Part shown: positions 14,999 through 32,247 of the stretch, piece after piece
Layout: each line of letters begins with the position of its first letter
Position numbering within the stretch: the stretch's first letter is position 1
Assembly (NCBI GenBank): GCA_902633185.1
Contig: CACPFN010000009.1
Coordinates: forward strand, 1 to 43,106
Direction of reading: 5' to 3'
DNA: 43,106 nt
Origin: an uncultured Pelagibacteraceae bacterium
GTDB lineage: Bacteria > Pseudomonadota > Alphaproteobacteria > Pelagibacterales > Pelagibacteraceae
Program-made: the position numbers and the translations under genes
Notes under the pieces: model-generated
The model's input: only the letters and a program-made list of their open reading frames with translations
Told to the model about the DNA's origin: nothing
Databases searched by the model: none

Positions 14999-15796
14999 CT
15001 AATTTTTGTTGTGAATTCTATCCATTTCTTGAAGCTCGACTTCAAGTTTGTCTAATTCTTCACCACCAGCCATCATACTAAGAAGTTTTTCTCTAGAAAT
15101 ATCTTTTTTTTGGAACGTTCCCATGCTTTTGCCTCTGTTAAGTACAGTGAAACTATTACCAACAGGGTAAGCATGATGTACATTATGAGTAATTAAAATT
15201 ACAGCCAATCCCTCAGATGCAGCCTTTACAATATATTTTAATACCATTGATGCTTGATGAACTCCTAAAGCAGAAGTTGGTTCATCTAAAACTAAAACTT
15301 TTGCTCCAAAATATATAGCTCGTGATATTGCTAGGCATTGTCTTTCACCACCGGACATAGTTCCAACTGCCTGAGATGGATCTCTAACATCGATACCTAT
15401 CTGTCCCATTCTATCTGCTGCTATCTTATTTGCTTTCTCCACATCAAAAGTTTTAAGGAAAGGAATACCTTTTTGAGGCTCTCTTCCCATAAAAAAATTT
15501 CTAGTAACACTCATTAAAGGAACTAATGCTAGATCTTGGTAAACTGTTCCTATACCAATATCTAAAGCATCTTTAGGTGAGTCAAAAACAATTTTGTTAT
15601 CTTCAAAAATAATTTCTCCTTCATCAGGCTTATGAACACCTGCTAAGGTTTTAATTAAAGTCGACTTTCCTGCCCCGTTATCTCCTAGTAAGCACATAAT
15701 CTCACCTTTTTTTAATCTCATAGTGACATCCTTAAGCGCTATTACCTTACCGAAAAACTTACTAATATTATTAAATTGAACGAGATAGTCAGACAT
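14999..15796 (-). CDS. Sugar/polyol ABC importer ATPase (FrcA-type, single domain)
   Basis: Energises the importer encoded by this minus-strand set. The 265 residues hold one ABC domain: Walker [10 protein letters not shown] at 38-46, Q-loop in '[11 protein letters not shown]', signature '[15 protein letters not shown]', Walker B '[12 protein letters not shown]' and the H-loop in '[11 protein letters not shown]'. Ribose-type importers usually have fused double-domain ATPases near 500 residues; this half-size form is the FrcA type. It overlaps the permease stop by one base. Location near iolG and iolE suggests inositol or a related polyol. Confidence 0.93.
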
Positions 15797-16923
15797 TATT
15801 TGCTCTCAGTAACTTTTTTTCTTATATAGTTATTAAACACTACAGCTATCAACATCATTGCTCCTAAGAAAACTTTAAACCAATCAGTGTCAACATCTGT
15901 ATAAAATATTCCCATAGATACGGTGCCAAATATAATTGCACCAAAAGCTGCACCTATTGCAGATCCATACCCTCCAGTTAAGAGACACCCACCAACAACA
16001 GCAGCTGCAATAGCTTCTAGTTCTTTTAAAGTACCTCTCATAGTATCTGCAGAACCCGCATCTAATACTTGAATACAAGCAAAAATAGTAGAAGCGACTG
16101 CCGTACCAATAAATAGACTTATTTTTACCCTTCCAACAGGCACACCCACATTTGTTGCTCCAACCTTATCACCTCCAGATGCGAAGATCCAATTACCGTA
16201 TCTTGTTTTCATCAATATCCATGTTGCAAACAAAGTTAATGCAATAAACCAAATAACTGATGGAGGTATTCCAGTTGCAAGAGGAGTTCCATCAGTTCTT
16301 AGTTCAATTAATTTTAATGATCCCAACCAAGTAAAAAGCCATTTAAAAGTATCTGTAGCAAATAACCAAGCTAATGGATCATCTTCAATTAATACTCTTA
16401 GTCCTGGAACTTGAGTTCTACCAGTAATCAATCTTGTTATTGCTAATGTCAAACCTCTTAAAATAAAAAGCATTGCAAGTGTTACAATAAAAGATGGCAA
16501 ACCAGTTTTGACAACCATTATTCCATTAAAGTATCCAACCAATACTGCCATAGCGAAAGCAAAAACTATACTCATCCATAAAGGCCAACCCCAATAAATT
16601 GCAGGAATTGCTATACAAATTCCAGCAAAGCCAATCATGGATCCAATTGACAAATCAAATTCACCGCCAATCATTAACATCGCTGCTGCTATTGCTATAA
16701 TTCCTAAATTAGCTGAAACATCGAGGAAATTAAGCATTCCATAGGCGCTAAACATACCAGTATCGCCAGCAACTATTCCAAAAAATATAAATACAAGTAT
16801 CGAGCCACCTAATGCACCTAGCTCAGGCCTATTCAATAAAACTCTTAGCGGTGATATTTTTTTTAGACGTTCGTCTTCATTAAGACTACTTTTTGATGAA
16901 ATACTTTTTGATTTTAATGACAT
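15796..16923 (-). CDS. Sugar/polyol ABC importer permease (FrcC/RbsC-type)
   Basis: A 375-residue inner-membrane permease with about ten hydrophobic segments after a 30-residue charged cytoplasmic N-terminus. Family blocks include '[17 protein letters not shown]', '[20 protein letters not shown]', '[20 protein letters not shown]' and '[20 protein letters not shown]', the last being the conserved RbsC-like loop. It lies between the binding-protein gene (56 bases upstream, with an intervening terminator hairpin) and the ATPase gene (one-base overlap). The substrate is inferred from context to be a cyclic polyol or sugar. Confidence 0.93.
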
Positions 16924-16979: not shown

Positions 16980-17903
16980 TTATCTATAACCTTGAGCTGC
17001 CCATTTAATTACTTTAGCAGCATTATCAGGAGTAACAAATCCAGGTCCAGTCATAACTACACCTGCAGGCATTGTTCCCCATCTCATGTACTGAGCAAAA
17101 ATAGCTATAGGCAAATAACCTTGTAGATATTGTTGTTGGTCAATTAAAAACTCTACTTTACCTGCAGCAGCAGCTTTTAACATATTAGGTGACATATCAA
17201 ATGTTCCTAATTTAACATTTCCAACTTTACCAGCAGCTTCTAAAGCTTTTAGTGCTGCTTCACCAGATAAACCAGCTCCTAAAGTTAGAATAGTGTCATA
17301 TCCACCACCTAATTTTGCAGCTACAGCTTTTTGAATTTCAGTTGGGTCATTTGATGTTCCAAGAATATCAACAGATCCACCAAAACCTTTTTTGAAACCT
17401 GCACATCTTCTATCAAGCGCTACGTTTCCAACTTCGTGGTTAACGCATAAAGCTTTTTTTCCTCCAGCAGCTTTCATTTTTTGTCCGCCACCAACGCCAG
17501 CTTCAAATTCAGTTTGACCTACGTGTGCACTAATTCCTAATGATGCATAGTCATCCGAACCAGAGTTCATTGAAACTACTGGTATACCAGCAGCTATTGC
17601 TGCTTTAACAGATTTTCCTAATGCAGCTGCATCAGGTAAAGTAATTACAATACCCTTTGGTTTTTGTGATACAGCGTTATCAATTAGTTTTGCCATTTCA
17701 ACCATGTCAAAAGTTCCAGGCGCAGTGTATTTGCAAGATACTCCCATATCTTTACAAGCAGCATCAACTCCATTTTTAGCTACCGACCAAAAAGGGTCAT
17801 TAGCTTGTCCATGTGAAACAACAATTATATCAGTTGCTAATGCTGATACAGACATCATTGCCCATGCAGCAACAGCTAATATAAAGTTCTTTATTGTTTT
17901 CAT
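16980..17903 (-). CDS. Periplasmic sugar/polyol-binding protein (RbsB/Peripla_BP_4 type)
   Basis: A 307-residue binding protein with a Sec signal peptide of about 23 residues ending 'SALA'. The mature part begins 'TDIIVVSHGQANDPFWSVAK', then 'PKGIVITLPDAAALG', 'GIPVVSMNSGSDDY', 'CVNHEVGNVALDRRCAGFKKG' and 'LGTFDMSPNML', the two-lobe type I fold. The pattern closely recalls binding proteins encoded in rhizobial inositol gene clusters, so myo-inositol or a similar polyol is the best guess, given iolG directly upstream. A strong Shine-Dalgarno (AGAGAGGAAA) precedes the ATG; the transcript should end mostly at the hairpin downstream. Confidence 0.93.
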   Translation of the reverse strand: MKTIKNFILAVAAWAMMSVSALATDIIVVSHGQANDPFWSVAKNGVDAACKDMGVSCKYTAPGTFDMVEMAKLIDNAVSQKPKGIVITLPDAAALGKSVKAAIAAGIPVVSMNSGSDDYASLGISAHVGQTEFEAGVGGGQKMKAAGGKKALCVNHEVGNVALDRRCAGFKKGFGGSVDILGTSNDPTEIQKAVAAKLGGGYDTILTLGAGLSGEAALKALEAAGKVGNVKLGTFDMSPNMLKAAAAGKVEFLIDQQQYLQGYLPIAIFAQYMRWGTMPAGVVMTGPGFVTPDNAAKVIKWAAQGYR

Positions 17904-18008: not shown

Positions 18009-19022
18009 TTAATATTTTATTTTTTCAAACTTTTTTGATTTTAATGACCGGATAGCACTCTCAGCAATTTGTATTGAAATCTTTCCATCAATAAAACCAC
18101 TTTTAGGTCTTAAATTTGATCTGAATAATTTAGCAAGATCATTTAACTGTTCTTTATATGCCTGATCGTATCTTTCTATAAAAAAATGTTTAAAGCTTGA
18201 TCGTGCATTCGTACTTTTATTAGAATACAAACTAATCTCATTTTCTTTGATATTATCGGAAATAATCATTCCTTTGCTTCCAAAAAGCTCTACTCTTTGA
18301 TCATATCCAAAACTACAATGTCTCGAATTACTTATAATACATTGAACACCATCTTTTGTTTTCAAAATTGCCGTAGCAAGCTCGAAATCTTTAAGTTTAT
18401 TGAAGTATTTATTAGAAATATTGCTTCCTGTGGCAAATATAGAAACAAATTCATCTTTACCCGCATAATATCTTGCTAGATCAAAATCATGGATCATCAT
18501 ATCTTTAAAAATACCACCTGAGGCTTTTAAATAATTTATAGATGGAGCAGCTGGATCTCTGCTAGTAATAATAATTTTCTCTAACTTTCCTATCTTGCCT
18601 TTTATTAAATTATTTTTTAGAGAACTATGACCTGGATCGTATCTCCTATTAAATCCAATTTGAATTTTATGATTAAATTTATTTATTTTTTTTTCATAAT
18701 TTTGAATTTTTTTTAAATTTAAATCTAAAGGTTTTTCACAAAATACTGTTTTATTACTTTTTATACTTTCATATATAAATTTAAGATGAGTTGATGTAGT
18801 GGAAGATATAAAAATACAATCAATTTTTTTATCTTTATATGCTGTTTGAGGACTTACAATATTTTGACAATTTAGATTTTTTGAAACTTTTTTTGCAAGT
18901 TTTCTATTAACATCGAAAATATATTTAAGATTAAAATTTTTATTATTTATTAAATTATTTGCATGCATTAAGCCTATTCTTCCCAAACCGAATAATGCTA
19001 CGTTAATTAAATTTTTACCCAT
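18009..19022 (-). CDS. iolG: myo-Inositol 2-dehydrogenase IolG (Gfo/Idh/MocA family)
   Basis: Oxidises myo-inositol to scyllo-inosose with NAD+. Start set at the ATG giving 'MGKNLINVALFGLGRIG'; a start 27 bases upstream would add an odd tail and a longer overlap. In 337 residues the dinucleotide motif GLGRIG is at 12-17, Lys97 is in the EKP motif, and Asp174 and His178 are in 'FKDMMIHDFDLARYY'. These match the K97/D172/H176 triad of Bacillus IolG, and 'IQIGFNRRYDP' and 'ITSRDPA' are also IolG-like. It overlaps the end of the upstream Gfo/Idh gene by 16 bases. Other inositol-type substrates are possible. Confidence 0.85.
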   Translation of the reverse strand: MGKNLINVALFGLGRIGLMHANNLINNKNFNLKYIFDVNRKLAKKVSKNLNCQNIVSPQTAYKDKKIDCIFISSTTSTHLKFIYESIKSNKTVFCEKPLDLNLKKIQNYEKKINKFNHKIQIGFNRRYDPGHSSLKNNLIKGKIGKLEKIIITSRDPAAPSINYLKASGGIFKDMMIHDFDLARYYAGKDEFVSIFATGSNISNKYFNKLKDFELATAILKTKDGVQCIISNSRHCSFGYDQRVELFGSKGMIISDNIKENEISLYSNKSTNARSSFKHFFIERYDQAYKEQLNDLAKLFRSNLRPKSGFIDGKISIQIAESAIRSLKSKKFEKIKY

Positions 19023-20152
19023 TGTTTTTTTAATGATGATTTCTTGCATGCATCAATGAATTTAGCAGTCTCCAAACCTTCTTCTTCGTTAGGAAAATAA
19101 AATCTTTTTTTTGTATTTGTTTTTAAATATTCAGCAAATTCCTTATATATATTTGCAAAAGCATCTAAATATCCTTCAGGGTGACCAAATTTTACTCTAG
19201 AAAATTTTTTTGAAAAATTTGCCTTTGTATATCCTCTTTCTAAAAACTTTACTGCTCCTTTGCTTGGATTAAATTTTAGATAATTTGGATCATTTTGAAC
19301 CCATTCTAAACTTCCTTTAGACCCATATACTCTAATTCTTAAACCATAAACACCACCTTTAGCTGTTACACATGTCCATACAATTCCTTTAGCACCATTA
19401 TTAAAATTAACAAAAACTTGTGCGTTATTATCCATATTAACGTCCTTCGAATATTTACTTACATCGGCTATCAGTTTTTCTCCTTTAAGGCCTGTAATAT
19501 AAATTGCTAGATGATATGCGTGTGATCCTATTTCATTGAGAACTGCTGATACACCAACAATTTTTTTATCAACTTTCCATTTAAAAACCTTTTTTGAATT
19601 TGTTTTTGAAATTTTATTACCATCTGTCCAATCCTGAATATATTCAACATTTATATATTCAACTTTTCCGATTTTTCCTTTTTCCACTAAATTTTTTGCT
19701 TCCCTTACCATTGGATAAGATGAATAGTTGTGAGTCAGTGCATATTTAATTTTTTTGTTATTTTTAATCGCTTTATATAGTTTTTTTCCCTGCTCAAGAT
19801 TTCCAGCAAATGGTTTGTCTGAAATTACATGTATATTTTTTTTTATAAAATTCTCTGCAATAATTTGATGACTTGATGGTGGAGTCATTATTGCTACAAC
19901 ATTAATACCATCTTTTCTTTTCGCTTCTTTTTCAGACATCTCCTTGTAATTTGAATAACATCTCGATTTGTCTAAACCTATACTTTGTCCAAATTTCCTA
20001 GATTTATCAACACTTCTAGAAAATACCCCTGCAACGATTTCGTATTTGTCATCATATCTAGATGAAATCCTATGAACATGTCCGATCCAAGATCCAGGTC
20101 CTCCTCCAACAATTCCAAGTTTAAATTTTTTAGGTTTAATTTTTTGAAGCAT
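19007..20152 (-). CDS. Gfo/Idh/MocA-family oxidoreductase
   Basis: A 381-residue NAD(P)-dependent dehydrogenase, longer than IolG. The Rossmann motif is 'GIVGGGPGSWIGHVHR', a form found in Gfo/Idh proteins of inositol and sugar gene clusters. The catalytic lysine lies in 'ISDKPFAGN' (DKP instead of EKP) and the later histidines in 'NEIGSHAYHLAIYITG'. It is transcribed with iolG and starts 26 bases from divergent iolE. A second inositol-isomer or inosose-related oxidation, such as of scyllo- or D-chiro-inositol, is plausible. The exact substrate is not visible. Confidence 0.85.
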   Translation of the reverse strand: MLQKIKPKKFKLGIVGGGPGSWIGHVHRISSRYDDKYEIVAGVFSRSVDKSRKFGQSIGLDKSRCYSNYKEMSEKEAKRKDGINVVAIMTPPSSHQIIAENFIKKNIHVISDKPFAGNLEQGKKLYKAIKNNKKIKYALTHNYSSYPMVREAKNLVEKGKIGKVEYINVEYIQDWTDGNKISKTNSKKVFKWKVDKKIVGVSAVLNEIGSHAYHLAIYITGLKGEKLIADVSKYSKDVNMDNNAQVFVNFNNGAKGIVWTCVTAKGGVYGLRIRVYGSKGSLEWVQNDPNYLKFNPSKGAVKFLERGYTKANFSKKFSRVKFGHPEGYLDAFANIYKEFAEYLKTNTKKRFYFPNEEEGLETAKFIDACKKSSLKKQWVKI

Positions 20153-20178
20153 TTAATATCATAACAAAACTATTATTT

Positions 20179-21081
20179 ATGTCAGTAAAATTAGGTATAG
20201 CCCCAATAGCTTGGAGCAATGATGACATGCCTGAGCTTGGTGGTGATACTTCGCTTGAACAATGTCTTTCTGAAGCTAGTGAAGCAGGATTTAAAGGAAT
20301 AGAGTCTGGTGGAAAATTTCCAAAAACATCAAAAGAATTAATTCCTATATTAAATAAATATAATTTAAAATTATGCTCAGGTTGGTATGGAGCAAATTTA
20401 AGAAAAAATACTTTTGAAGAGGAAAAATTAAAAATTCAAAACCAATTGAAACTATTTCAAGATTGTAAAGCACCCTGCATGGTTTTTGCCGAAGTTTATG
20501 GTTCTATTCAAGGTGATCCAAATATAAATTTGTCTAAAAGACCTAGAATGGATTTAGACGAGTCTAAAAAATATTATAAAAAAATTTCAGAAATGGGAAA
20601 ATATCTAGAGGATCAAGACATGCCCCTTGCTTATCATCATCATATGGGAACTTGCATTGAAAGTGAAGAAGATACAAGAAGATTATTAGAAAACACAGAT
20701 GGTAGTGTCAAACTAACTTTAGATACCGGACACATGTTATTTGCAAAAGGAGATAGTTTGAAAATTTATAAAGAATTTAAAGAAAGAATAATTCATATAC
20801 ATTGCAAAGATATGAGAAAAAACGTTTTAGATAATTCGTTAAATCACGATTATAGTTTTAGACAGGCTTTTTTAGAAGGAGCTTTCACTGTTCCAGGAGA
20901 TGGTTGTATTGATTACAAGCCTTTTTTTGACTTGTTAAAAAAACAAAATTATTCTGGATGGTTAGTTGTAGAAGCGGAGCAAGATCCCGCAAAAGCAAAT
21001 CCTTTTGAATATGCTAAAATTGGATACAAATATCTAATTGAGACTTTAAAAAGCGCAAATTTAGAAATTGAAAATAATTAG
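20179..21081 (+). CDS. iolE: scyllo-Inosose dehydratase IolE
   Basis: Dehydrates scyllo-inosose to 3D-trihydroxycyclohexane-1,2-dione, step two of inositol breakdown. The 300-residue xylose-isomerase-like TIM barrel is diagnostic: 'KLGIAPIAWSNDDMPELGGD' at the N-terminus, 'AYHHHMGT' at 151-158, 'DTGH' at 182-185, 'HIHCKD' near 206-211, 'GAFTVPGDG' near 234-242 and 'VVEAEQDPAKANP' at the end. The metal-binding acids and histidines lie in these blocks. Its promoter must lie in the 26-base gap to, or inside, the divergent Gfo/Idh gene. Its stop codon touches that of the convergent pilin-like gene with no base between. Confidence 0.93.
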   Translation: MSVKLGIAPIAWSNDDMPELGGDTSLEQCLSEASEAGFKGIESGGKFPKTSKELIPILNKYNLKLCSGWYGANLRKNTFEEEKLKIQNQLKLFQDCKAPCMVFAEVYGSIQGDPNINLSKRPRMDLDESKKYYKKISEMGKYLEDQDMPLAYHHHMGTCIESEEDTRRLLENTDGSVKLTLDTGHMLFAKGDSLKIYKEFKERIIHIHCKDMRKNVLDNSLNHDYSFRQAFLEGAFTVPGDGCIDYKPFFDLLKKQNYSGWLVVEAEQDPAKANPFEYAKIGYKYLIETLKSANLEIENN

Positions 21082-21582
21082 CTATCTATATAAAGAAGTT
21101 AATTCATTATTACCAGCAGCCACACATGGAGATTTAAAACAAGTACCAACAATCCATTCTGATCCTGGTTCTGCTAGAAAATTTGATGACATTATAAAAA
21201 TAACACCCATTTCTACTGACTGACCAGCTTTTCCCTCAGCTTTTATTCTTGGGTCAGGGTCTGTTTTAACTTTATTATCATCTGAAAATGGATTTTCAAT
21301 CTTAAGATTATCATTTATGTGATTAACAACTTTTTCAGCTATCCATTCAGCATTACATGGATCACCCCAAACTGTTATCTTCCCTTCATCATTATTGCCA
21401 CAATTATTAATTTCGTCATTAATAAAATCGACAACTTTTTTATGATTTTCTTTTACTAAATTTGCACGAGCTTCAACTTCAGGCCTTGTACTCGCTGTCC
21501 ATATCAACATTCCCACAACATAAACAGCTGATATAATGATAAGAAACTCTAACAATCCAAAATTTTTTAATTTTAAGCTCAT
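21082..21582 (-). CDS. Pilin-like membrane-anchored protein of unknown function
   Basis: A 166-residue protein with a short basic start, one hydrophobic helix (about 8-29) and a polar remainder. The start 'KNFGLLEFLIIISAVYVVG' aligns with type IV (pseudo)pilin signals ('KGFTLLELLIVI'): Phe at +1, Leu at +3 and +4, Glu at +5. The residue at -1 is Asn instead of Gly. The outer part has cysteine pairs (one pair near 61-76, one as 'CFKSPC' near the end), as pilins often do. Its start overlaps the stop of the hydroxyacid dehydrogenase gene (ATGA), so it is last in a catabolic operon. No other pilus gene is in the window. A plain N-terminally anchored protein is the alternative. Confidence 0.6.
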   Translation of the reverse strand: MSLKLKNFGLLEFLIIISAVYVVGMLIWTASTRPEVEARANLVKENHKKVVDFINDEINNCGNNDEGKITVWGDPCNAEWIAEKVVNHINDNLKIENPFSDDNKVKTDPDPRIKAEGKAGQSVEMGVIFIMSSNFLAEPGSEWIVGTCFKSPCVAAGNNELTSLYR

Positions 21583-22538
21583 GAGATTTTTACTATTTTT
21601 GACTTTTCCAATTTATTGTCAAAAAAATCAATAATATTTTGGACTGTTTCAATACCCATTCTAGACAAACATTCTTCGGTAAATACTGCTGAATGAGGGC
21701 TTAAAAATGCTTTCTCATTTTTTAGCAATGGATTATCTAAAGATGGAGGCTCCTTTTCAAAAACATCAAGACCTGCACCAAAAATTAAATCTTCGTTTAA
21801 TGCCTTATTCAGATCTTCCTCGTTAATAATACCACCTCTTGCAGCATTAATTAAAATACAATTTTTTTTCATTTTTTTTATCATTTCATAATTGATTAAA
21901 TGTTTTGTATTTTCGTTTAGAGGCATATGAATTGAAATTGCATCCATTTTATTTAAACTTTCATTTAAATCATTAATTTTAGTACCACCAACTTTTTTAA
22001 TCTCCTCTTCGCTGACAAAAGGATCATAAACAAAAATGTTCATTTCTAAACCCTTACATTTTTTAAGTAAGCATTTTCCAATACGACCAAAACCTGCAAT
22101 TAAGATACTTTTATTCCATAACTCAATTGTTTTAGGAAGCTTAGTTCTATCACTGAACTTTCCAGTTTTTACAGTCTCGTTGTACATATTATTTCTTTTT
22201 GCAATGCTGAATAGCATGAATAAAACATGTTCTGCTACAGCTTGAGCATTTGCTGTAGCTGTTATTGCTAATGTGATATTGTTTTGCTTGGTTGCTTCAA
22301 GATCTATATTATCATAGCCTACACCATGTCTAGATATCACTTTTAAATTCTTAGCTGAGTCTATAATTTCTTTTGACAATTTAGATGTTCTAATACTTAT
22401 TCCATCACAGTCTTTTATTTTATCTTTCAAAAATTCTGCATCTGTATTGTCTACAACTTCAAATTCAAAATTTTTATTACCTTTTAGTAAATCAATACCA
22501 TGATTATGTATCGATCCTATTATTAAGATTTTTTTCAT
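21579..22538 (-). CDS. D-2-hydroxyacid dehydrogenase (SerA/phosphoglycerate dehydrogenase-like)
   Basis: A 319-residue NAD-dependent dehydrogenase with the complete D-2-hydroxyacid layout. The N-terminal catalytic part has 'ISRHGVGYDNIDL', followed by the Rossmann motif 'GFGRIGKCL', arginine in 'NAARGGIINEEDL', glutamate in 'DVFEKEPP' and histidine in 'LSPHSAVF'. No ACT or regulatory domain follows, so it is shorter than biosynthetic SerA and resembles catabolic glyoxylate/hydroxypyruvate or sugar-acid dehydrogenases. It lies in the operon aldehyde dehydrogenase-aldolase-this gene-pilin-like gene. A role in reducing or oxidising a 2-oxo/2-hydroxy acid of that pathway is inferred. Confidence 0.88.
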   Translation of the reverse strand: MKKILIIGSIHNHGIDLLKGNKNFEFEVVDNTDAEFLKDKIKDCDGISIRTSKLSKEIIDSAKNLKVISRHGVGYDNIDLEATKQNNITLAITATANAQAVAEHVLFMLFSIAKRNNMYNETVKTGKFSDRTKLPKTIELWNKSILIAGFGRIGKCLLKKCKGLEMNIFVYDPFVSEEEIKKVGGTKINDLNESLNKMDAISIHMPLNENTKHLINYEMIKKMKKNCILINAARGGIINEEDLNKALNEDLIFGAGLDVFEKEPPSLDNPLLKNEKAFLSPHSAVFTEECLSRMGIETVQNIIDFFDNKLEKSKIVKIS

Positions 22539-22562
22539 ACGTAAAAGTTTATACTTTATTTA

Positions 22563-23354
22563 TTAATAGGCTTTAGATAATTCTGATTTAACTGTGCCTT
22601 TTAAATTTTCAACTGTATTTTTCGCACCCGCAGTTATAAATCGGGAGTCTGCTCCAACTGTTACAAATTGAAAACCTTTTTCAATCATTTTTTTTGCATA
22701 GTCAGTACTTCCGTTATGAATTCCAGCAAATATATTGTTTTTTTTTGCATGCTCTAATATTCTAAGTATTTCTGAATAAGCTTTAGTATCCTCACCTTTG
22801 TCAAAACCAGGCTTTTCTCCTATAGCCAAACTTAAATCAGCTGGCCCTATGTAAATACCATCAAGGCCTGGGGTACTCATAATTTCATCAAGATTTTCTA
22901 AAGCTTCTTTAGTTTCAATCATTGCCATTTTTAATATTTCATCGTTTGCATGATCTCCATAATCAGGCCCTCCATAGATTAACCCTCTCATTGGACCGAA
23001 ACTTCTATATCCATGTGGTGGATATTTACATGCTTGAACAAATCTTTCTGCTTCTTTTCGATTACTAACCATTGGGCAAATGATTCCATAACATCCAGCA
23101 TCTAAAATTTTCATAATTTGACCAGGTTCATTCCAATTAACTCTTGCCAAAGGTACGACTTCTGTTGCCGAAATCACTTGCATCATTGGCATTGCATTTG
23201 TGTAATCAACGAGCCCGTGTTGCATATCAATTGTTAATGAGTCCCATCCTTGTTGAGCCATTGTTTCTGCTGAAACAGTACTTGGAATTTGTAACCAACC
23301 ATTGATTACAGCATTGCCATTTTTAATTATTTCTTTGGCTTTATTTTTTCTCAT
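22563..23354 (-). CDS. HpcH/HpaI-family class II aldolase
   Basis: Metal-dependent pyruvate aldolase of the 2-dehydro-3-deoxyglucarate / 4-hydroxy-2-oxoheptanedioate aldolase family; it cleaves a 4-hydroxy-2-oxo acid to pyruvate and an aldehyde. In 263 residues the base His46 is in 'DMQHG', the pyruvate-binding Arg71 in 'LARVNW', and metal ligands Glu147 ('MIETKEAL') and Asp173 ('GPADLS') are all present. It is 4 bases downstream of the aldehyde dehydrogenase gene, in one operon divergent from iolD. The substrate could be a rhamnonate- or glucarate-derived acid or, as proposed in the findings, 4-hydroxy-2-oxoadipate from inositol. Confidence 0.92.
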   Translation of the reverse strand: MRKNKAKEIIKNGNAVINGWLQIPSTVSAETMAQQGWDSLTIDMQHGLVDYTNAMPMMQVISATEVVPLARVNWNEPGQIMKILDAGCYGIICPMVSNRKEAERFVQACKYPPHGYRSFGPMRGLIYGGPDYGDHANDEILKMAMIETKEALENLDEIMSTPGLDGIYIGPADLSLAIGEKPGFDKGEDTKAYSEILRILEHAKKNNIFAGIHNGSTDYAKKMIEKGFQFVTVGADSRFITAGAKNTVENLKGTVKSELSKAY

Positions 23355-23358
23355 TTAC

Positions 23359-24801
23359 TCAGGTTTTGAGACCCATATGGGTATACTTTATATTAAGGTA
23401 ATCTTTTATAGCCATAGATCCACCTTCACGACCATAACCAGTTTGTTTTATTCCACCGAATGGAGCTTCAGCAACTGCAACAGCCGCTGTATTTACTGCA
23501 ACACAACCGGTTTCCATCATCTCTGATGCTCTATTAGCTTTGTCCATTGAGTTTGTATATAAATAGCTACAAAGTCCCAGGTCATTATTATTTGCTCTCT
23601 CTACTACTTCGTCAAAATCCTTGAAAGTTAAAACAGGTACTAAGGGACCAAAAGGTTCTTCTTTCATAATTGTAAAATTATCCTGCACATCATCAAATAC
23701 TGTTGGTTCAAAATAATAACCTTTATTAAATCCTGAAGGTCTACCCCCACCTAAAACAACTTTTGCTCCTTCACTCTTTGTAGTTTCGACTAATTTTTCA
23801 ATTTCTTCCAAACGTTTTGCTGTTGTTAAAGGTCCTAAGTCAGTGCCTTCATCCATTCCATTTCCAATTTTTAATTTTTTTGCTCTATCTACAAAAGCAT
23901 TTACAAATTCTTCTTTTCTTGTTTCTTGAATGTAAAACCTATTTGGAGATATACAAACTTGACCATTGTTACGAAATTTTGCTGTTATTGCCATATCTGC
24001 AACTTTATTCATGTCAACATCATCAAATACTATAAATGGAGAATGGCCACTTAATTCCATTGTAACTCTTTGAACTTTATCAGCAGCTTTTTTAAGAATT
24101 AATTTTCCAACACGTGTTGAGCCGGTTATAGAAACTTTTTTTATTATATCTGAATCAAGTAATTCATTTGATATTTCAGCTGGGTCTCCAGATAATAAAT
24201 TGACTACTCCATCAGGAACTCCAGCATCTTTACAAATATTTACAAGTTCCATAACTGCTCCAGGTGTAATTACATCTGGCTTACAAATAACTGAACAACC
24301 AGCAGCCAGTGCAGTTGAAATTTTTCTAGACGCTAAAACTATAGGAAAATTCCATGGCACAAGTGCTGCTACAACACCTACTGGCTGATAGTAAACATGA
24401 ACTCTTGTTTCTGGAAATCTACTTTGTAATGTTTCACCATAAATTCTCTTAGTTTCTTCTGCATTCCATTCAAATATATCTGCTCCACCACCAACTTCTC
24501 CAATTGCTTCTTTAAGAGGTTTTCCAACTTCAAGTGTAAGCCATTTAGCCAATACATCTTTTCTTTCACGCATCAAATCTGCAATTTTTCTTATTACATA
24601 AGACCTCTGCCATGGAGTAGTATTTTTCCAAGTTTCGAGTCCTTTCTCTGCTGATTTTAATGCTTTTTGAACGTCGACAGAGGACGCTTTTGATGCTTCT
24701 CCTAAAACTTCTTCTGTTGCTGGATTGATAACTTTATAAGTTTCTTTTTTTTCTGCTTGTTGCCACTGACCATCAATGAATTGACCAAAATTGCTATACA
24801 T
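23359..24801 (-). CDS. NAD(P)-dependent aldehyde dehydrogenase (semialdehyde-type)
   Basis: A 480-residue cytoplasmic aldehyde dehydrogenase. Catalytic residues are Asn151 ('PWNFP'), Lys174, Glu249 in 'TMELSGHSPFIVF' and Cys283 in 'NNGQVCISPNR'. Retention of Glu249 points to the hydrolytic, acid-forming class and away from CoA-acylating MmsA, which lacks this glutamate. The overall pattern is of the succinate-semialdehyde / 2-oxoglutarate-semialdehyde / lactaldehyde group. It is first in a minus-strand operon with an aldolase and a hydroxyacid dehydrogenase, 52 bases from divergent iolD, so its substrate is likely an aldehyde of the same pathway. Confidence 0.92.
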   Translation of the reverse strand: MYSNFGQFIDGQWQQAEKKETYKVINPATEEVLGEASKASSVDVQKALKSAEKGLETWKNTTPWQRSYVIRKIADLMRERKDVLAKWLTLEVGKPLKEAIGEVGGGADIFEWNAEETKRIYGETLQSRFPETRVHVYYQPVGVVAALVPWNFPIVLASRKISTALAAGCSVICKPDVITPGAVMELVNICKDAGVPDGVVNLLSGDPAEISNELLDSDIIKKVSITGSTRVGKLILKKAADKVQRVTMELSGHSPFIVFDDVDMNKVADMAITAKFRNNGQVCISPNRFYIQETRKEEFVNAFVDRAKKLKIGNGMDEGTDLGPLTTAKRLEEIEKLVETTKSEGAKVVLGGGRPSGFNKGYYFEPTVFDDVQDNFTIMKEEPFGPLVPVLTFKDFDEVVERANNNDLGLCSYLYTNSMDKANRASEMMETGCVAVNTAAVAVAEAPFGGIKQTGYGREGGSMAIKDYLNIKYTHMGLKT

Positions 24802-24853
24802 ATTTTTTAAATTGTGTTTAATTGTTAAAAGTTAAATATTTATATATAGAATA

Positions 24854-26698
24854 ATGAAAAAAATAAAGCTCACTTGTGCACATGCAATAATAAAACATCT
24901 TATTGGTCAAAAAATTTTAATAGATGGTAAAAAAGAGCAGTTATTTGCTGGAGCTTTTGGTATTTTTGGACATGGGAATGTTGCTTGTTTAGGACAAGCT
25001 CTACAAGAAAATCAAGATAAATTACCAACTTATAGAGGGCATCATGAGCAAAATATGGCGTTGACTGGAATAGCATATGCTAGAGCTAAAAGAAGAAAAC
25101 AATTTTTTGTTGCAACTAGTTCAGTTGGACCAGGATCTACAAATATGGTTACAGCCTCTGCTGTTGCTATGAGCAATAGACTTCCAATTTTATTTTTACC
25201 TGGAGATACATATGCAAACAGAATGCCTGACCCGGTTCTACAACAAGTTGAGCATTTTAATAATCCTGGCATTACTCAGAATGATGCTTTCAAACCAGTA
25301 ACAAAATATTTTGATAGAATTACAAGACCAGAACAAATCTTACAAACATTACCTCAAGCAATCCAAACAATGTTAGATCCAGCAGATTGTGGACCAGCTT
25401 GCTTATCATTATCTCAAGATGTTCAAGGTGAAACATATGAATATCCTGAAGAATTTTTTAAAGAGAGAGTGCATAATATTAGACGACCAAGACCTGATGA
25501 TTTTCAAATAAAACAAGCAGCTGAGCTAATTAAAAAATCTAAAAATCCTTTATTGATTTCTGGTGGAGGAGTTTTCTACTCTGATGCAATGGAAGATCTA
25601 AGTAATTTTGCAATTAAACATAATATACCAGTTACTCAAACAGTTATGGGCTACTCTACAATGAAGAGAGACCACTCTCATTTTTTGGGTCCCATAGGTG
25701 GTCTTGGTGGCAAAGCAGCAAATAATTTAGCTAAACAAACTGACCTAGCTATTGCTGTTGGAACAAAGTTAGCTGATTTTACAACTGGGTCATGGGCAAA
25801 TTTTGAGAACCCAGACTTTTCACTTGTTAGTGTTAATGTCTCTAGATTTGATGCTAGCAAACATTTGGCACAATCAGTAATAGGTGATGCAAAAGTAAGC
25901 TTACAAGAGCTATCAAATGCTTTGGGAAATTGGAAAGCACCTGATGAATGGCATAAAAAATCAAGAGATGAATTAAAAAATTGGAATGATTATGTTGATA
26001 AAGAAAGTGGACCAACTAATCAAGAACTACCTAGTTATGCACATGCTGTAGGAGCAATATATCGTAATTCAGATCCAACAGACATTGCTGTTACAGCGGC
26101 AGGAGGATTGGTTGGAGAAGTTGTACAAATTTGGAGGCCAAAAGAATTAAATACACATGAAACCGAATGGGGTTTTAGCTGTATGAGTTATGAAATTTCT
26201 GGTGCATTAGGAGTAAAAATGGCCAACCCAGATAAAGAAGTAATAGCTTTTGTAGGAGATGGATCTTATTTACTTTTTAATTCTGATATTTATTCATCGG
26301 TTATTACAAATAATAAATTAATAATAGTTTTATGTGATAATGGAGGCCATGCCGTTATTAATAGGCTACAAATATTTAAAGGTGGGAAAGAATTTAATTG
26401 TCTATTTAATAGTTCAAAAGCTCCAAATCTCGTACCTGTTAATTTTGCTAAACATGCGGAGAGTATGGGTGCAAAATCTGAGGAGGTATCATCTATTTCT
26501 GAATTAGAAGAAGCATTTAAAAGAGCTAAAAAATCTGATGTGACTTACTTAATTTCAATAAAAACTCATTCTTATGAGTGGCTAGAAGGTTCTGCTTACT
26601 GGGAAAGCCCTACTTTAGAAATGCCATCAACAAAAGAAAACGAAGAGGCATTAAAACTTCATAAAGAAGGAAAATCAAAGCAAAGACAAGGCGTCTAA
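24854..26698 (+). CDS. iolD: Trihydroxycyclohexane-1,2-dione hydrolase IolD
   Basis: Thiamine-diphosphate enzyme that opens the inositol-derived ring diketone to 5-deoxy-glucuronate, step three of inositol breakdown. In 614 residues the ThDP-activating glutamate is Glu65 in 'YRGHHEQNM', the ThDP/Mg motif starts at Gly468-Asp469-Gly470 ('VGDGSYLLFNSDIY'), and the IolD-specific end 'DNGGHAVINRLQ' follows. The length is near the usual 620-640. It is divergent from the aldehyde dehydrogenase/aldolase operon and leads a plus-strand series with 5 bases to the next gene. The next inositol enzymes, IolB and IolC, are not encoded nearby. Confidence 0.93.
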   Translation: MKKIKLTCAHAIIKHLIGQKILIDGKKEQLFAGAFGIFGHGNVACLGQALQENQDKLPTYRGHHEQNMALTGIAYARAKRRKQFFVATSSVGPGSTNMVTASAVAMSNRLPILFLPGDTYANRMPDPVLQQVEHFNNPGITQNDAFKPVTKYFDRITRPEQILQTLPQAIQTMLDPADCGPACLSLSQDVQGETYEYPEEFFKERVHNIRRPRPDDFQIKQAAELIKKSKNPLLISGGGVFYSDAMEDLSNFAIKHNIPVTQTVMGYSTMKRDHSHFLGPIGGLGGKAANNLAKQTDLAIAVGTKLADFTTGSWANFENPDFSLVSVNVSRFDASKHLAQSVIGDAKVSLQELSNALGNWKAPDEWHKKSRDELKNWNDYVDKESGPTNQELPSYAHAVGAIYRNSDPTDIAVTAAGGLVGEVVQIWRPKELNTHETEWGFSCMSYEISGALGVKMANPDKEVIAFVGDGSYLLFNSDIYSSVITNNKLIIVLCDNGGHAVINRLQIFKGGKEFNCLFNSSKAPNLVPVNFAKHAESMGAKSEEVSSISELEEAFKRAKKSDVTYLISIKTHSYEWLEGSAYWESPTLEMPSTKENEEALKLHKEGKSKQRQGV

Positions 26699-26703
26699 AA
26701 TTC

Positions 26704-27858
26704 ATGAATAAAGTTTTTAAGGTTGGTCTCATAGGATGTGGCCATATCGCAGAAACATATTTTAGGGGACACCAATATTTTAATAATTTCAAAATCGTTG
26801 CTTGTGCAGATATTAATCAAAAAGCAGCTGAAAAATGTGCGAAATTATACAACATCAAATCAATGACTGTTAATGAAATATTAAAAGATAAAGATATTGA
26901 GGTAATTTTAAATTTAACAATTCCTCAATCACACTATTCTGTATCAAAAAAAGTATTAAATGCAGGTAAGCATGTTTATTCAGAAAAACCATTAGCAACA
27001 TACTTTCAAAAAGGAAAAGAGTTAGTGGCTTTGGCAAAACAAAAAAAATTATACATTGGTAATGCGCCAGATACTTTTCTTGGAGGAGGTGGACAAAAAG
27101 CAAAGGAATTAATTGACTCTGATTTGATTGGACAAATCAAACTTGGAAATGCAATCTTTGCATTTCCTGGTGTTGAAAACTTTCATCCAAAACCAGAGTC
27201 TTGGTATAAAAAAGAGGGAGGACCAGTAATAGATATGGGTCCTTATTTTTTTACAACACTTGTTAATCTTTTAGGGCCAGCTAAACAGGTGCAAGGAAGA
27301 ACATTAACAGCATTTAAAAGAAGAAATTATAGAGCAGGTCCAAATAAAGGAAAAACATTCAAGGTTGAAACACCAACTACTTATTTAGCAACAATTCAAT
27401 TTTATAATGAAGCAATTATTCAAGTCACTTTATCCTTTGATGTTATTAATCATCAAAGAAATCATATGGAACTTTATGGAACTAAAGGATCAATTATTGT
27501 TCCTGATCCAAATATGTTTGGTGGATCTGTTTATATTTCTGTTACTGAAGGTGGTCGTTGGGGTGAACATAAAACCGATAAAATGCATTTAGGAAAAATA
27601 AATATTACATCTGCAAGCGGTAGATCCAATGAGTCACCAACAAATGCAAACTATAGAAGTGTTGGCATGTCTGAGATGTTATATTCAATAGAAAAAAAGA
27701 AAAAACATCGATGTTCAGGAGAGCTATCTCTTCATGTTTTAGATATAATTGAGTCTACTATGAAAGCCGCAACAACTGGAGTACCTCAAAAAATTAAAAC
27801 TAAGTGTGAAAAACCAAAAAGATTTACAGAAGAAGAAGTAAAAAAAATTCTCTTATAG
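26704..27858 (+). CDS. Gfo/Idh/MocA-family oxidoreductase
   Basis: A 384-residue NAD(P)-dependent dehydrogenase, the third Gfo/Idh protein of the cluster. The Rossmann motif is 'VGLIGCGHIAETYFRGH', the catalytic lysine is in 'YSEKPLATYF', and the substrate-side block is 'GGPVIDMGPYFFTTLVNLLG', which has no histidine where IolG has one ('MIHDFD'). That difference argues against a plain inositol dehydrogenase. It is 5 bases after iolD and 3 bases before the next dehydrogenase, so co-transcribed. The substrate is unknown; a sugar, inosose or lactone-forming oxidation is possible. Confidence 0.87.
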   Translation: MNKVFKVGLIGCGHIAETYFRGHQYFNNFKIVACADINQKAAEKCAKLYNIKSMTVNEILKDKDIEVILNLTIPQSHYSVSKKVLNAGKHVYSEKPLATYFQKGKELVALAKQKKLYIGNAPDTFLGGGGQKAKELIDSDLIGQIKLGNAIFAFPGVENFHPKPESWYKKEGGPVIDMGPYFFTTLVNLLGPAKQVQGRTLTAFKRRNYRAGPNKGKTFKVETPTTYLATIQFYNEAIIQVTLSFDVINHQRNHMELYGTKGSIIVPDPNMFGGSVYISVTEGGRWGEHKTDKMHLGKINITSASGRSNESPTNANYRSVGMSEMLYSIEKKKKHRCSGELSLHVLDIIESTMKAATTGVPQKIKTKCEKPKRFTEEEVKKILL

Positions 27859-28903: not shown

Positions 28904-29653
28904 ATGACTTCAACAAATAAATTGCTCTTAGAGGCTAAAGGTATCACAAAGTATTTTGGAACAATAACTGCTTTAGAAAATGTAAATTTAAAAGTGCACG
29001 AAGGTGAATGTTTAGGTGTAGTGGGAGATAATGGTGCAGGCAAATCTACACTAATGAAAGTTTTATCTGGTTTATACAAACCAAGTGCAGGTGCTTTATT
29101 TTTTGAGGGCAAAGAACATGTGTTAGATAGCCCAAAAGACTCTCAAAATTTAGGCTTAGAAATGGTTTATCAAGATCTTGCATTGGCAGGTAATTTACCC
29201 ATTGGAGAAAATATATTCTTAGGAAGAGAGCCTACAAAAAATATTGGCTTCTTAAAATTTCTAGATTTTAAAAAAATTCAAGAAATGACAAGCGCACACT
29301 TAGAGAAACTAAAAATAAATGTTAAAAGTGCTGATCAGAAAGTAGAGGAATTATCTGGAGGACAAAGACAAGCGGTTGCAATAGCTAGGTCAACAGCATT
29401 TAATGCTAAAGTTGTTATAATGGATGAACCAACTGCTGCTTTAGCAATAAAAGAAGTTGGAAAAGTATTAGACTTAATTAACAAATTAAAAAGTACTGGC
29501 GTAGGTGTTATAGTAATAAGTCATAGAATGGATGATATTTTTACTGTTTGCGACCGAGTAATGGCACTTTTTCAAGGAACAAACTTTGCTGAGTCTCAAT
29601 TAGATAAAACTTCAAGAGATGAAGTCATTGGTTGGATTATGGGAAAAAAATAA
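28904..29653 (+). CDS. Sugar ABC importer ATPase (FrcA/RbsA-like, single domain)
   Basis: The 249 residues form one ABC domain: Walker [10 protein letters not shown] at 41-49, Q-loop in 'EMVYQDLALAG', signature 'ELSGGQRQAVAIARS', Walker B 'VVIMDEPTAALA' and H-loop in 'VIVISHRMDD'. As in the first importer it is half the size of RbsA, so a homodimer is expected. It begins 22 bases after the hydroxyacid dehydrogenase gene and is followed by the permease gene after one base. Downstream mutarotase and ribokinase genes point to a pentose or related sugar. Confidence 0.93.
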   Translation: MTSTNKLLLEAKGITKYFGTITALENVNLKVHEGECLGVVGDNGAGKSTLMKVLSGLYKPSAGALFFEGKEHVLDSPKDSQNLGLEMVYQDLALAGNLPIGENIFLGREPTKNIGFLKFLDFKKIQEMTSAHLEKLKINVKSADQKVEELSGGQRQAVAIARSTAFNAKVVIMDEPTAALAIKEVGKVLDLINKLKSTGVGVIVISHRMDDIFTVCDRVMALFQGTNFAESQLDKTSRDEVIGWIMGKK

Positions 29654-29654
29654 A

Positions 29655-30668
29655 ATGGACGATAAGGAAAAAAAACAAGATAGCTTATACGTAAAACTTA
29701 TTCCATATTTTGAAAAATACGGGATTTTACTATTATTAGTTATCATGATCTTGGTAATGCATATTTTGCAACCAGATGTCTTCTTGTCATGGAGAAATGT
29801 AACAAACGTATTCAAACAAATATCTTGGCAATCAATGTTAGCTTTAGGTGTTTTTATGGTGATTGTAACTGCGGGTATAGATCTATCAGTTGGCTCAATA
29901 ATGATGCTTTCATTGATGATTTTAGCAATAGTGGCTAAAGCTGGAGCACCTTGGTTTATAGTTGTTCTAGTACCTTTATTTGCTGGATTTTTATGCGGGT
30001 TGATAAATGGTTTGGGGATAACACTTTTAAGAATGCCTCATCCTTTTATAATGACTTTAGGAACTCTATATATTTTTAGAGGAACAGGAAACTTAATATC
30101 AGGCGGAACACCCATAAGTGGATTTACCGATGAAGTTAGGTACTTAGGTCATGGTAGAATAGATCTTACTTGGTTAGGATTAGAGAAATCTCAATATCTC
30201 CCTGTAAGCTTAGTTTTAATCGCGGTTGTATATTTTGTTTTTTGGGTTTTCTTGAATCATAGTCGAACAGGAAAGTGGATTTATGCAATTGGTGGAAACC
30301 CAAGCGCAGCAAGAGCTTCAGGAATTAATGTTAATAAAATTTTAATAATTGTATATTCACTTTGTGGATTTTTATCAGGTATTGGAGCATTAATTCTAGC
30401 AGGAAGAACAGACTCTGGTTATCCTAATGCAGGATTACAATCTGAATTGGATGCTATCGCAGCATGTATAATTGGTGGAGCCAGTTTCTTTGGTGGTAGA
30501 GGAACTGTTCTTGGAGTTTTTGCTGGAGTAATGATTATGGGAATTTTAAGAAATGGACTTAATTTGATGGATGTAAGTTCTTTCTGGCAACAAGTATTGA
30601 TTGGCTCGATCATTGTATTAGCAGTTTACGTGGATGTTTTAAGAAGAGATTTCGGCACGAGGAAATAA
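29655..30668 (+). CDS. Sugar ABC importer permease (RbsC-type)
   Basis: A 337-residue inner-membrane permease with about eight to ten segments. The ATG at 29655, one base after the ATPase stop, was chosen over one 36 bases upstream that would lie inside the ATPase gene. Family blocks are 'VTAGIDLSVGSIMMLSL', 'GTLYIFRGTGNLISGG', 'YAIGGNPSAARASGINV' and 'SELDAIAACIIGGASFFGGRG'. It follows the ATPase gene, and the binding-protein gene comes third after 107 bases, the reverse of the order in the first importer. Confidence 0.93.
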   Translation: MDDKEKKQDSLYVKLIPYFEKYGILLLLVIMILVMHILQPDVFLSWRNVTNVFKQISWQSMLALGVFMVIVTAGIDLSVGSIMMLSLMILAIVAKAGAPWFIVVLVPLFAGFLCGLINGLGITLLRMPHPFIMTLGTLYIFRGTGNLISGGTPISGFTDEVRYLGHGRIDLTWLGLEKSQYLPVSLVLIAVVYFVFWVFLNHSRTGKWIYAIGGNPSAARASGINVNKILIIVYSLCGFLSGIGALILAGRTDSGYPNAGLQSELDAIAACIIGGASFFGGRGTVLGVFAGVMIMGILRNGLNLMDVSSFWQQVLIGSIIVLAVYVDVLRRDFGTRK

Positions 30669-30775
30669 ACACGTCAAAGTTGAATAGATGCTACCATAAG
30701 AGACCCTGTAAACAGTTGAATTTTTTTTAAAAATTTTATTAAATTAAGCTTTAATAATTATTAAAGGGGAAATTT

Positions 30776-31708
30776 ATGAGAGAACTATCAAGAAAAATTG
30801 TTGTTTTAGTATCAGCAATTTTTTTATCGATAAGCATGATTTCAGCTTCTTTTGCTGATGGTCATGGTAAAAAAATCTTGTTCAGTATTAAAGGTCCTGG
30901 GTCTGGAAATCCTTTCTGGGCTTCTGTTACAAAAGGTGCTGAAGAAGAAGCTAAAAAATTAGGTGTTAAGTTAATCTTGGTTGCGCCACCTCAAGAAGGT
31001 GATGTTCAAGCACAAATTAACCAAGTTGAAGACCAACTTGCTAAAGGTGTTGATGCTTTAGCTCTTGCACCAGGAGATCCAAATGCATTTGCTCCAATTG
31101 TAGATGACGCTATCAAAAGTGGTGTTCCAGTTGTATTTGTAGATACAAAGGGGATCAATGAAGGTGTTACTTTTATTGGAACTAACAATATGAATGGAGC
31201 TGAATTAGCTGCTAAATTCATTTGTGACAAAACTCCAAAAGGTTCAGATGTTGCAATTTTGACTGGAATAGAGTCTCAATCAACAGCTTTACTAAGAAGA
31301 GACGGTGCAATTAAAGGATTTAAAAATTGCGGTTTAAATATAGTTGCTACTCAAACAGCTGAGTGGGATACTGCAAAAGGTAGATCAGTTACTGAGTCTA
31401 TTATTTTGAAAAATCCTAACATCAAAGCAATATTTGCTTCAAATGACAATATGGGCTTAGGTGCTATGCAAGCTCTTAAAGATGCAGATATGAATGATGT
31501 TGTTGTTGTTGGTTTTGATGCAACTCCAGATGCTGCTACAAGTATCTTAAAAGGTGAAATGACTGCAACTATTGCTCAGTTCTCATATAACATGGGTGCT
31601 TATGGTGTTAAATATGCACTTGAGTTAGCTAATGGTGGAAGTATTGATCCAAACATTGATACTGGAACACAATTAGTAACAAAAGAAAACGCTAACGATT
31701 TTAAATAA
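30776..31708 (+). CDS. Periplasmic sugar-binding protein (RbsB-type)
   Basis: A 310-residue binding protein with a Sec signal peptide (cut after 'SASFA', mature 'DGHGKK'). Core blocks are 'FSIKGPGSGNPFWASVTKG', 'GVDALALAPGDPNAFAPI', 'GVPVVFVDTKG', 'FIGTNNMNGAELAAKF', 'IFASNDNMGLGAMQAL' and 'VVGFDATPDAATSIL', the type I ribose-binding fold. A very good Shine-Dalgarno (AAAGGGG) precedes the ATG, and 107 bases upstream contain its own promoter region, including the repeat AGTTGAAT at 30678 and 30714. A strong terminator follows the gene. Ligand probably ribose or another sugar with a pyranose ring. Confidence 0.93.
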   Translation: MRELSRKIVVLVSAIFLSISMISASFADGHGKKILFSIKGPGSGNPFWASVTKGAEEEAKKLGVKLILVAPPQEGDVQAQINQVEDQLAKGVDALALAPGDPNAFAPIVDDAIKSGVPVVFVDTKGINEGVTFIGTNNMNGAELAAKFICDKTPKGSDVAILTGIESQSTALLRRDGAIKGFKNCGLNIVATQTAEWDTAKGRSVTESIILKNPNIKAIFASNDNMGLGAMQALKDADMNDVVVVGFDATPDAATSILKGEMTATIAQFSYNMGAYGVKYALELANGGSIDPNIDTGTQLVTKENANDFK

Positions 31709-31727
31709 TCATTAGTCTATAACATTT

Positions 31728-31763
31728 AAAAAGGGTGGAATTTTTATTCCACCCTTTTTTTTT
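31728..31763 (+). terminator. Intrinsic terminator after the second binding-protein gene
   Basis: GGGTGGAAT and ATTCCACCC pair perfectly around a TTTT loop, flanked by AAAAA on the left and a run of nine T on the right, giving 14 bp of perfect pairing. It is the textbook form of a rho-independent terminator. It separates the highly expressed binding-protein gene from the mutarotase and ribokinase genes. Confidence 0.93.
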
Positions 31764-31781
31764 ATGTAATATAATCTTTTA

Positions 31782-32243: not shown

Positions 32244-32247
32244 TTAA

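Follow-up and report, generated by a model that had tools for sequence, protein, structure and literature searches.

How is the breakdown of myo-inositol completed in a bacterium that possesses IolG, IolE, and IolD but neither of the two enzymes that follow IolD in the canonical pathway? The question is raised by a 43,106-nucleotide stretch of DNA (contig CACPFN010000009.1 of assembly GCA_902633185.1; the whole stretch is hereafter the window) from an uncultured member of the Pelagibacteraceae, which is contig 9 of a 1.16-Mb genome that is 82% complete. Pelagibacteraceae and Candidatus Pelagibacter are taken here to be SAR11. The locus holds iolG, iolE, and iolD and, divergent from iolD across 52 bases, genes for an aldehyde dehydrogenase (ALDH) and an HpcH/HpaI-type aldolase (HpcH). 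This arrangement had been put forward in a preliminary description of the window and is confirmed by open reading frames (ORFs), families, and score cut-offs, IolG lying just below its cut-off. The ALDH possesses the Glu249 and Cys283 ascribed to it, and the aldolase His46, Arg71, Glu147, and Asp173, which we take, partly from comparison, to be the HpaI-type catalytic residues. Two more genes on the ALDH–HpcH strand had been omitted, encoding a D-2-hydroxyacid dehydrogenase (HADH) and a 166-residue orphan. From this content, the SAR11 locus appears to join a canonical upper half (ATP-binding cassette (ABC) uptake, IolG, IolE, and IolD) to a phosphate-free lower half that would replace IolB, IolC, and IolJ/DUF2090.

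Among 197 Pelagibacteraceae genomes surveyed, IolD exceeds its cut-off in 75, of which 35 are at least 90% complete (near-complete). IolB (KduI/IolB family) was found in none of these 75 carriers, including none of the 35 near-complete ones, by a search that finds it in 6 of 14 control genomes. Similarly, no carrier has an IolC above the 300-bit cut-off, with a best score of 110.1 bits, and 3 of the 14 controls do. MmsA, on the other hand, is above its cut-off in 69 of the 75, the window's own genome included; IolD carriers keep the malonate-semialdehyde enzyme but not the two enzymes that come after IolD. The preliminary description had seen neither IolB nor IolC in the window, and this extends to the whole genome, which yields no KduI-family match and no IolC above the cut-off. 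Its remark that MmsA was not seen is correct for the 43-kb window but not for the genome, where MmsA is encoded at G000:C2:48103-49536 (708.5 bits). IolJ and the fused IolC of other genomes were sought by tblastn against the fetched loci. A PfkB kinase within the window (32248-33162) was tried as IolC and rejected at 79.5 bits, 300 being needed. A lower half of inositol catabolism that would operate without IolB and IolC is well supported in SAR11 by these genome-wide searches, as had been suggested, and malonate semialdehyde as its proposed product fits the distribution of MmsA.

The aldolase follows iolD closely within the family. Profile A1, built from 13 SAR11 aldolases and run over the 197 genomes, returned 80 genomes at 375.9 bits or above, which were counted, and 11 at 157–176 bits, which were left out. 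A strong HpcH orthologue is thus present in 74 of the 75 genomes with full IolD and in 6 of the 122 others (Fisher p 9e-46, which is no true probability given that the genomes are related). The linkage to iolD envisaged in the preliminary description recurs across these relatives, HpcH and iolD being adjacent and divergent within 2 kb in 70 of the 74. The two genes lie on different contigs in three of the remaining four (G004, G070, and G069), and broken ALDH pieces separate them in G125. The sole full-IolD genome without HpcH (G167) has a contig that begins inside ALDH, and the partial IolD genes of G140, G124, and G171 are truncated at contig ends. Six genomes have HpcH without full IolD: G129 carries a split IolD, the contigs of G156 and G086 stop inside ALDH, and that of G196 stops around 0.6 kb past HpcH; the other two, G049 and G145, are considered below.

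Twenty SAR11 neighbourhoods from 4 genera, hand-picked from the 75 carriers and with gene calls made by E-value or coverage filters only, all contain iolD, ALDH, and an oxidoreductase gene of the GFO/IDH/MocA family (GFO) that adjoins iolD in each. HpcH is present in 19, despite rearranged flanks, and sits on another contig in the twentieth (G004). HADH, at 53% identity or more, occurs in 14 of the 20, and in 18 after further stretches were fetched; the G168 neighbourhood stops at a contig end and was not extended for HADH. Named genome records present the same picture: every one of the 80 best aldolase relatives, of at least 573 stretches, comes from a record titled Pelagibacteraceae or Candidatus Pelagibacter. 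A set of 41 named Pelagibacteraceae loci, each spanning 18 kb or more, was located via HpcH and drawn from the closest 80 only; in every one of the 41, ALDH and iolD lie side by side in divergent orientation, with GFO in 40 and HADH, at 50% identity or more, in 34 (a count that replaces the 36 obtained under E-value or coverage filters only).

Proposed route and the aldolase donor

IolD yields 5-deoxy-D-glucuronate, oxidation of which at C1 gives 5-deoxyglucarate. We infer from sequence, as did the preliminary description, that the ALDH would carry out this C1 oxidation. HADH, or the GFO after iolD, would then oxidise the C2 hydroxyl of 5-deoxyglucarate to give a 2-keto acid, which the aldolase would cut between C3 and C4 into hydroxypyruvate and malonate semialdehyde. 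HADH could reduce the hydroxypyruvate to D-glycerate, with MmsA converting malonate semialdehyde to acetyl-CoA. Such a route would employ no kinase before cleavage and no dehydratase after IolE. A lower half that is independent of IolB and IolC and proceeds through this aldolase is probable; the full version with hydroxypyruvate is a serious but tentative possibility. More tentative still is the complete picture of an unphosphorylated, dehydratase-free inositol route in SAR11 in which one HADH may both make the keto acid and reduce hydroxypyruvate, rendering this pair of steps redox-neutral.

The choice of hydroxypyruvate derives from the aldolase. Its assignment as an HpcH-type enzyme stands with regard to family (PF03328) and catalytic residues, but its closest solved relative is the hydroxyketoacid-aldolase SwHKA of Sphingomonas wittichii RW1 (6r62, 7o5r) and not classical HpcH. 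By sequence, it scores 198 bits to SwHKA versus 139 to HpaI; its structure model (mean predicted local distance difference test score, pLDDT, 79.5) aligns with SwHKA at Z 29.8–29.9 (37–38% identity) versus 27.6–27.7 for HpaI/HpcH chains (31–33%). The fold and catalytic residues are shared with the HpcH/HpaI 4-hydroxy-2-oxoheptanedioate aldolases; however, the score to the HpaI equivalog TIGR02311 is 163.2 bits, with 368.8 required. One SwHKA entry is titled 'in complex with hydroxypyruvate', and it is this nearness to an enzyme crystallised with hydroxypyruvate, rather than to classical HpcH, that suggests a dehydratase-free variant: an aldolase releasing hydroxypyruvate needs just a 2-keto group on its substrate, and therefore no dehydration. 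No link to inositol was seen for SwHKA, whereas the SAR11 aldolase is tied to iolD.

The accompanying oxidoreductases are consistent with more than one role. The nearest PDB entry to HADH is a phosphoglycerate dehydrogenase (1wwk), with glyoxylate reductases, glycerate dehydrogenases, and a probable 2-ketogluconate reductase lower in the list; we propose that HADH could serve in C2 oxidation of 5-deoxyglucarate, in hydroxypyruvate reduction, or in both. The nearest PDB chain to the ALDH is the succinate-semialdehyde dehydrogenase (SSADH) 3jz4 (411.9 bits), and its score to the family TIGR01780 of the same activity is 497.7 bits, below the 646.35 required. Arg159 and Arg288 are kept in 14 of 14 aligned ALDH sequences. 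These are the carboxylate-binding positions of SSADH, and their conservation thus makes an acid-aldehyde substrate likely, although they would suit 5-deoxyglucuronate and malonate semialdehyde equally. The iolD-linked GFO may be a second inositol dehydrogenase, a C1 oxidase, or a C2 oxidase.

IolD loci outside the family

Within the class, 385 genomes were searched, 54 genomes outside the family were found to carry IolD, and 40 IolD loci were fetched. Canonical loci in this set encode IolC and IolB together with IolJ or a fused IolC; two IolB/IolC sets per locus (fused IolC plus IolB, and IolC-IolB-IolJ) are present in L156, L169, and L170, and the L156 copy represents a second IolB type that scores 168.4 of 205 bits. 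Other loci place the aldolase with iol genes, in arrangements similar to those of SAR11. Gene order is HADH-HpcH-ALDH-iolG // iolD-iolE in L155, HADH-HpcH-iolG // iolD in L160 (genome G542), and HpcH // iolD in L171, and L212 and L213 have iolG-HpcH beside iolE and an ABC set, with iolD // HADH elsewhere. In 11 of 23 aldolase loci outside SAR11, from six families and both with and without iol genes, a relative of HADH (28–38% identity, under E-value or coverage filters only) lies no more than about 1 kb from the aldolase.

IolB is missing genome-wide in 23 of the 54 IolD genomes. Using a line of 220 bits that was picked after the score list had been viewed, 15 of the 23 have an SwHKA-like aldolase, compared with 10 of the 31 genomes that bear IolB (p 0.027). 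In the HpcH tree, the iol-linked aldolases do not form one group, at least three changes being forced by its starred branches and 11 of its 26 inner branches being open; hence, the link between aldolase and iol genes would have been gained or lost more than once. The IolD genomes with neither IolB nor an SwHKA-like aldolase are G270, G283, G317, G322, G323, G395, G486, and G563 (two of them 67–74% complete), and these eight perhaps represent a further variant.

Weighing the candidate routes

Several observations weigh against the proposed route. Within SAR11, no HADH lies near the cluster in G033 (L215), HADH at 50% identity or more was not found in 7 of the 41 named loci, and G049 and G145 are genuine exceptions in which the aldolase is present and no IolD was found. 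The latter genome, 60% complete, carries HADH-ALDH-HpcH as a single run on a 4.8-kb contig, an arrangement that speaks for the proposed set of enzymes. Outside the family, the trade-off between IolB and the aldolase is weak: 8 of the 23 IolB-free IolD genomes have no strong SwHKA-like aldolase, and IolB is present in four (G266, G211, G226, and G530) of the five genomes outside SAR11 whose aldolase is linked to iol genes, G542 being the one exception. In G226 and G530, relatives of the ALDH (42–43%) and GFO (65%) occur in a run with IolC-IolB-IolJ, and HpcH accompanies iolG; the ALDH-GFO-IolC-IolB-IolJ runs (L227 8270-13519 and L228 7840-13080) belong to 1.4-Mb genomes also carrying iolG-HpcH. 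Since G226 and G530 hold both lower halves, ALDH and GFO are not specific to an IolB-free route. With respect to the donor, an identity of 37–38% to SwHKA leaves it unfixed, SwHKA is also titled a class II pyruvate aldolase, and its Phe210 aligns with His213 of the SAR11 enzyme.

Release of pyruvate was the expectation of the preliminary description, whereby the ALDH would form 5-deoxyglucarate, a dehydratase encoded elsewhere would convert this to 4-hydroxy-2-oxoadipate, and the aldolase would split the latter into pyruvate and malonate semialdehyde. The linkage of ALDH and HpcH to iolD applies equally to such a route, and HpcH/HpaI enzymes are pyruvate aldolases, as the second title of SwHKA also has it. 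The difficulty is the dehydratase. Enolase-superfamily matches strong enough to count (about 85 bits or above) are present in 49 of the 75 carriers, including the window's own genome, after matches of around 28–44 bits to ORFs of roughly 400–425 residues, taken as true enolase, had been left out of the count; a second IlvD/EDD paralogue (the type scoring about 365 bits) is found in 10 of the 75. These being the two dehydratase families searched, both are missing from 12 of the 35 near-complete carriers, and among gene clusters present in at least 8 of the 20 neighbourhoods, none besides IolE is recognisable as a dehydratase (the orphan matches no Pfam or NCBIfam family). The enolase-superfamily protein at 33163, which had been named as the possible dehydratase, has its cluster in 2 of the 20 neighbourhoods and is uncountable in the 41 named loci, where the 10-kb flank stops short of the gene; it is rejected as a generally required enzyme because those 12 near-complete carriers lack a strong match to its superfamily. 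The second IlvD/EDD paralogue was rejected likewise, given its presence in so few carriers. HADH is, moreover, without a role if pyruvate is released and would have one if hydroxypyruvate is, so that its conservation favours the latter. Overall, cleavage to pyruvate appears unlikely, the interpretation in the preliminary description is partly supported, and the hydroxypyruvate version, although unproven, is the better fit at present.

The same genes can be assigned differently. The ALDH might instead be a malonate-semialdehyde dehydrogenase, leaving C1 of 5-deoxyglucuronate to the iolD-linked GFO (as a sugar 1-dehydrogenase type), with the remaining steps as proposed above. This would agree with the SSADH-like character of the ALDH and its two arginines, with its position in G226 and G530 beside IolC-IolB-IolJ, the product of which is malonate semialdehyde, and with the constant company of GFO and iolD; yet MmsA is already present in most carriers, GFO also lies inside IolC-IolB-IolJ runs, and L155 has the ALDH but no close GFO relative, making the assignment quite unlikely. 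Alternatively, ALDH, HpcH, and HADH could serve another imported sugar acid, while a non-homologous isomerase–kinase pair (the kinase being, for instance, a nearby PfkB or ROK protein) would take care of 5-deoxyglucuronate. Kinases are indeed at hand—the PfkB at 32248-33162, and ROK kinases in 11 of the 20 neighbourhoods—and HpcH–HADH pairs are found away from iol genes too. Such a division of labour would, however, have to accommodate the co-occurrence of HpcH with IolD in 74 of 75 genomes and their divergent adjacency, PfkB matches peak far below the IolC cut-off, and the window's PfkB stands last in a ribose-type cassette whose other members are an ABC set and an RbsD-like gene; we consider it the least probable of these readings. 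Comparative genomics as a whole strongly supports the kinase-free idea within SAR11, and more weakly outside it.

Known systems and gene content of the window

The proposed route shares a probable IolG (just under its cut-off), IolE, IolD, an ABC transporter, MmsA, and—as the proposed product—malonate semialdehyde with the canonical iol pathway (IolG-IolE-IolD-IolB-IolC-IolJ/DUF2090-MmsA). It differs in that all 75 SAR11 carriers are without a detected IolB or an above-cut-off IolC, and have an aldolase of another family together with ALDH and HADH instead. The inositol route of Thermotoga (IolM/IolN/IolO) departs from the Bacillus pathway before IolE/IolD. In PMC9007349, IolJ and IolC-DUF2090 are the aldolases of the 5-deoxyglucuronate route; there, the IolC-DUF2090 variant is likewise a non-homologous solution to the aldolase step, but one that retains IolC and a phosphorylated intermediate.

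Searches of open-access literature turned up no paper with a title or opening abstract lines that set out the proposed route. A genome survey of inositol users counts a cluster, by its stated rule, only with at least three of iolB, iolC, iolD, and iolE (PMC9430895); under that rule SAR11 loci would score negative, since iolD and iolE are the only two of these genes that they hold. The abstract of PMC10308909 ranks SAR11 as the most abundant marine microbial group; the main text of that paper, concerning AEGEAN-169, mentions galKMT genes and does not contain the word 'inositol'. Genes of the galKMT set are also present in our loci L145, L146, and L148, and G226 and G530 may belong to AEGEAN-169. 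Should the proposed route prove correct, the use of inositol by SAR11 will have gone unnoticed, and the pathway will possess a lower half free of phosphate. The route would, in addition, point to a natural role for SwHKA-type aldolases, a group known to us solely as biocatalysts. Furthermore, hydroxypyruvate would stand one transamination away from serine and glycine, for which SAR11 cells reportedly have a requirement.

Table 1. Features of the inositol locus, numbered from the first nucleotide of the window.
Feature	Position	Strand	Family, score, or distribution
ABC transporter ATPase, probably inositol	14999..15796	-	PF00005; 84–100% identical in 13/20 SAR11 neighbourhoods
ABC permease	15796..16923	-	PF02653; conserved along with the ATPase
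Periplasmic sugar-binding protein, probably inositol	16980..17903	-	PF13407; nearest PDB chain 4ru1 (CUT2 binding protein)
IolG, inositol 2-dehydrogenase	18009..19049	-	TIGR04380, 352.6 bits (cut-off 355); next family 123.1 bits
GFO/IDH/MocA oxidoreductase	19007..20152	-	PF01408; cluster in 2/20 neighbourhoods, 31/41 near relatives
IolE, myo-inosose-2 dehydratase	20179..21081	+	TIGR04379, 395.8 bits (cut-off 290)
166-residue orphan, hydrophobic N terminus, overlaps HADH	21082..21582	-	In 12/20 SAR11 neighbourhoods
HADH, D-2-hydroxyacid dehydrogenase	21579..22538	-	PF02826/PF00389
HpcH/HpaI-type class II aldolase, SwHKA (hydroxyketoacid-aldolase) kind	22563..23354	-	PF03328
ALDH, aldehyde dehydrogenase, hydrolytic type, SSADH-like	23359..24801	-	PF00171
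Divergent gap between ALDH and iolD, 52 bases	24802..24853	no strand	
IolD, trihydroxycyclohexane-1,2-dione hydrolase	24854..26698	+	TIGR04377, 797.7 bits (cut-off 715)
GFO/IDH/MocA oxidoreductase, starts 5 bases 3′ of iolD	26704..27858	+	PF01408

Uptake is tentatively assigned to the ABC set beyond iolG (Table 1). Relatives of the ATPase (50–60%) and of the binding protein (36–50%) sit inside other alphaproteobacterial iol loci that have IolB and IolC, making inositol the likely substrate. The ligand of 4ru1 is reportedly myo-inositol; the structure model of the binding protein is poor (mean pLDDT 51.1), and its Foldseek list was not used as evidence. The IolD protein carries a thiamine pyrophosphate-type motif, GDG...N, at 468. 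Searches of Pfam and NCBIfam returned no match for the orphan, and the GFO/IDH/MocA gene that overlaps iolG is not generally conserved within the cluster.

Beyond the iolD run, a ribose-type cassette (ABC set, RbsD-like, and PfkB) occupies 28904-33162 on the plus strand. Adjoining HpcH in five SAR11 loci (L037 13312-18462, L038, L039, L042, and L043; two of its genes in four) is a cassette of PanB-like, DUF1907, ApbA-like, 2-oxoglutarate (2OG)-oxygenase, and PhyH genes, for which no role emerged from the one copy scanned. A gene of 705–712 residues, present in eight loci and adjoining HpcH in seven, was set aside as a glycosyltransferase, judging by one scanned copy. Finally, 49 records titled as phage, 20 of them from Listeria, match IolD at below 60% identity and possibly reflect host DNA inside phage records.

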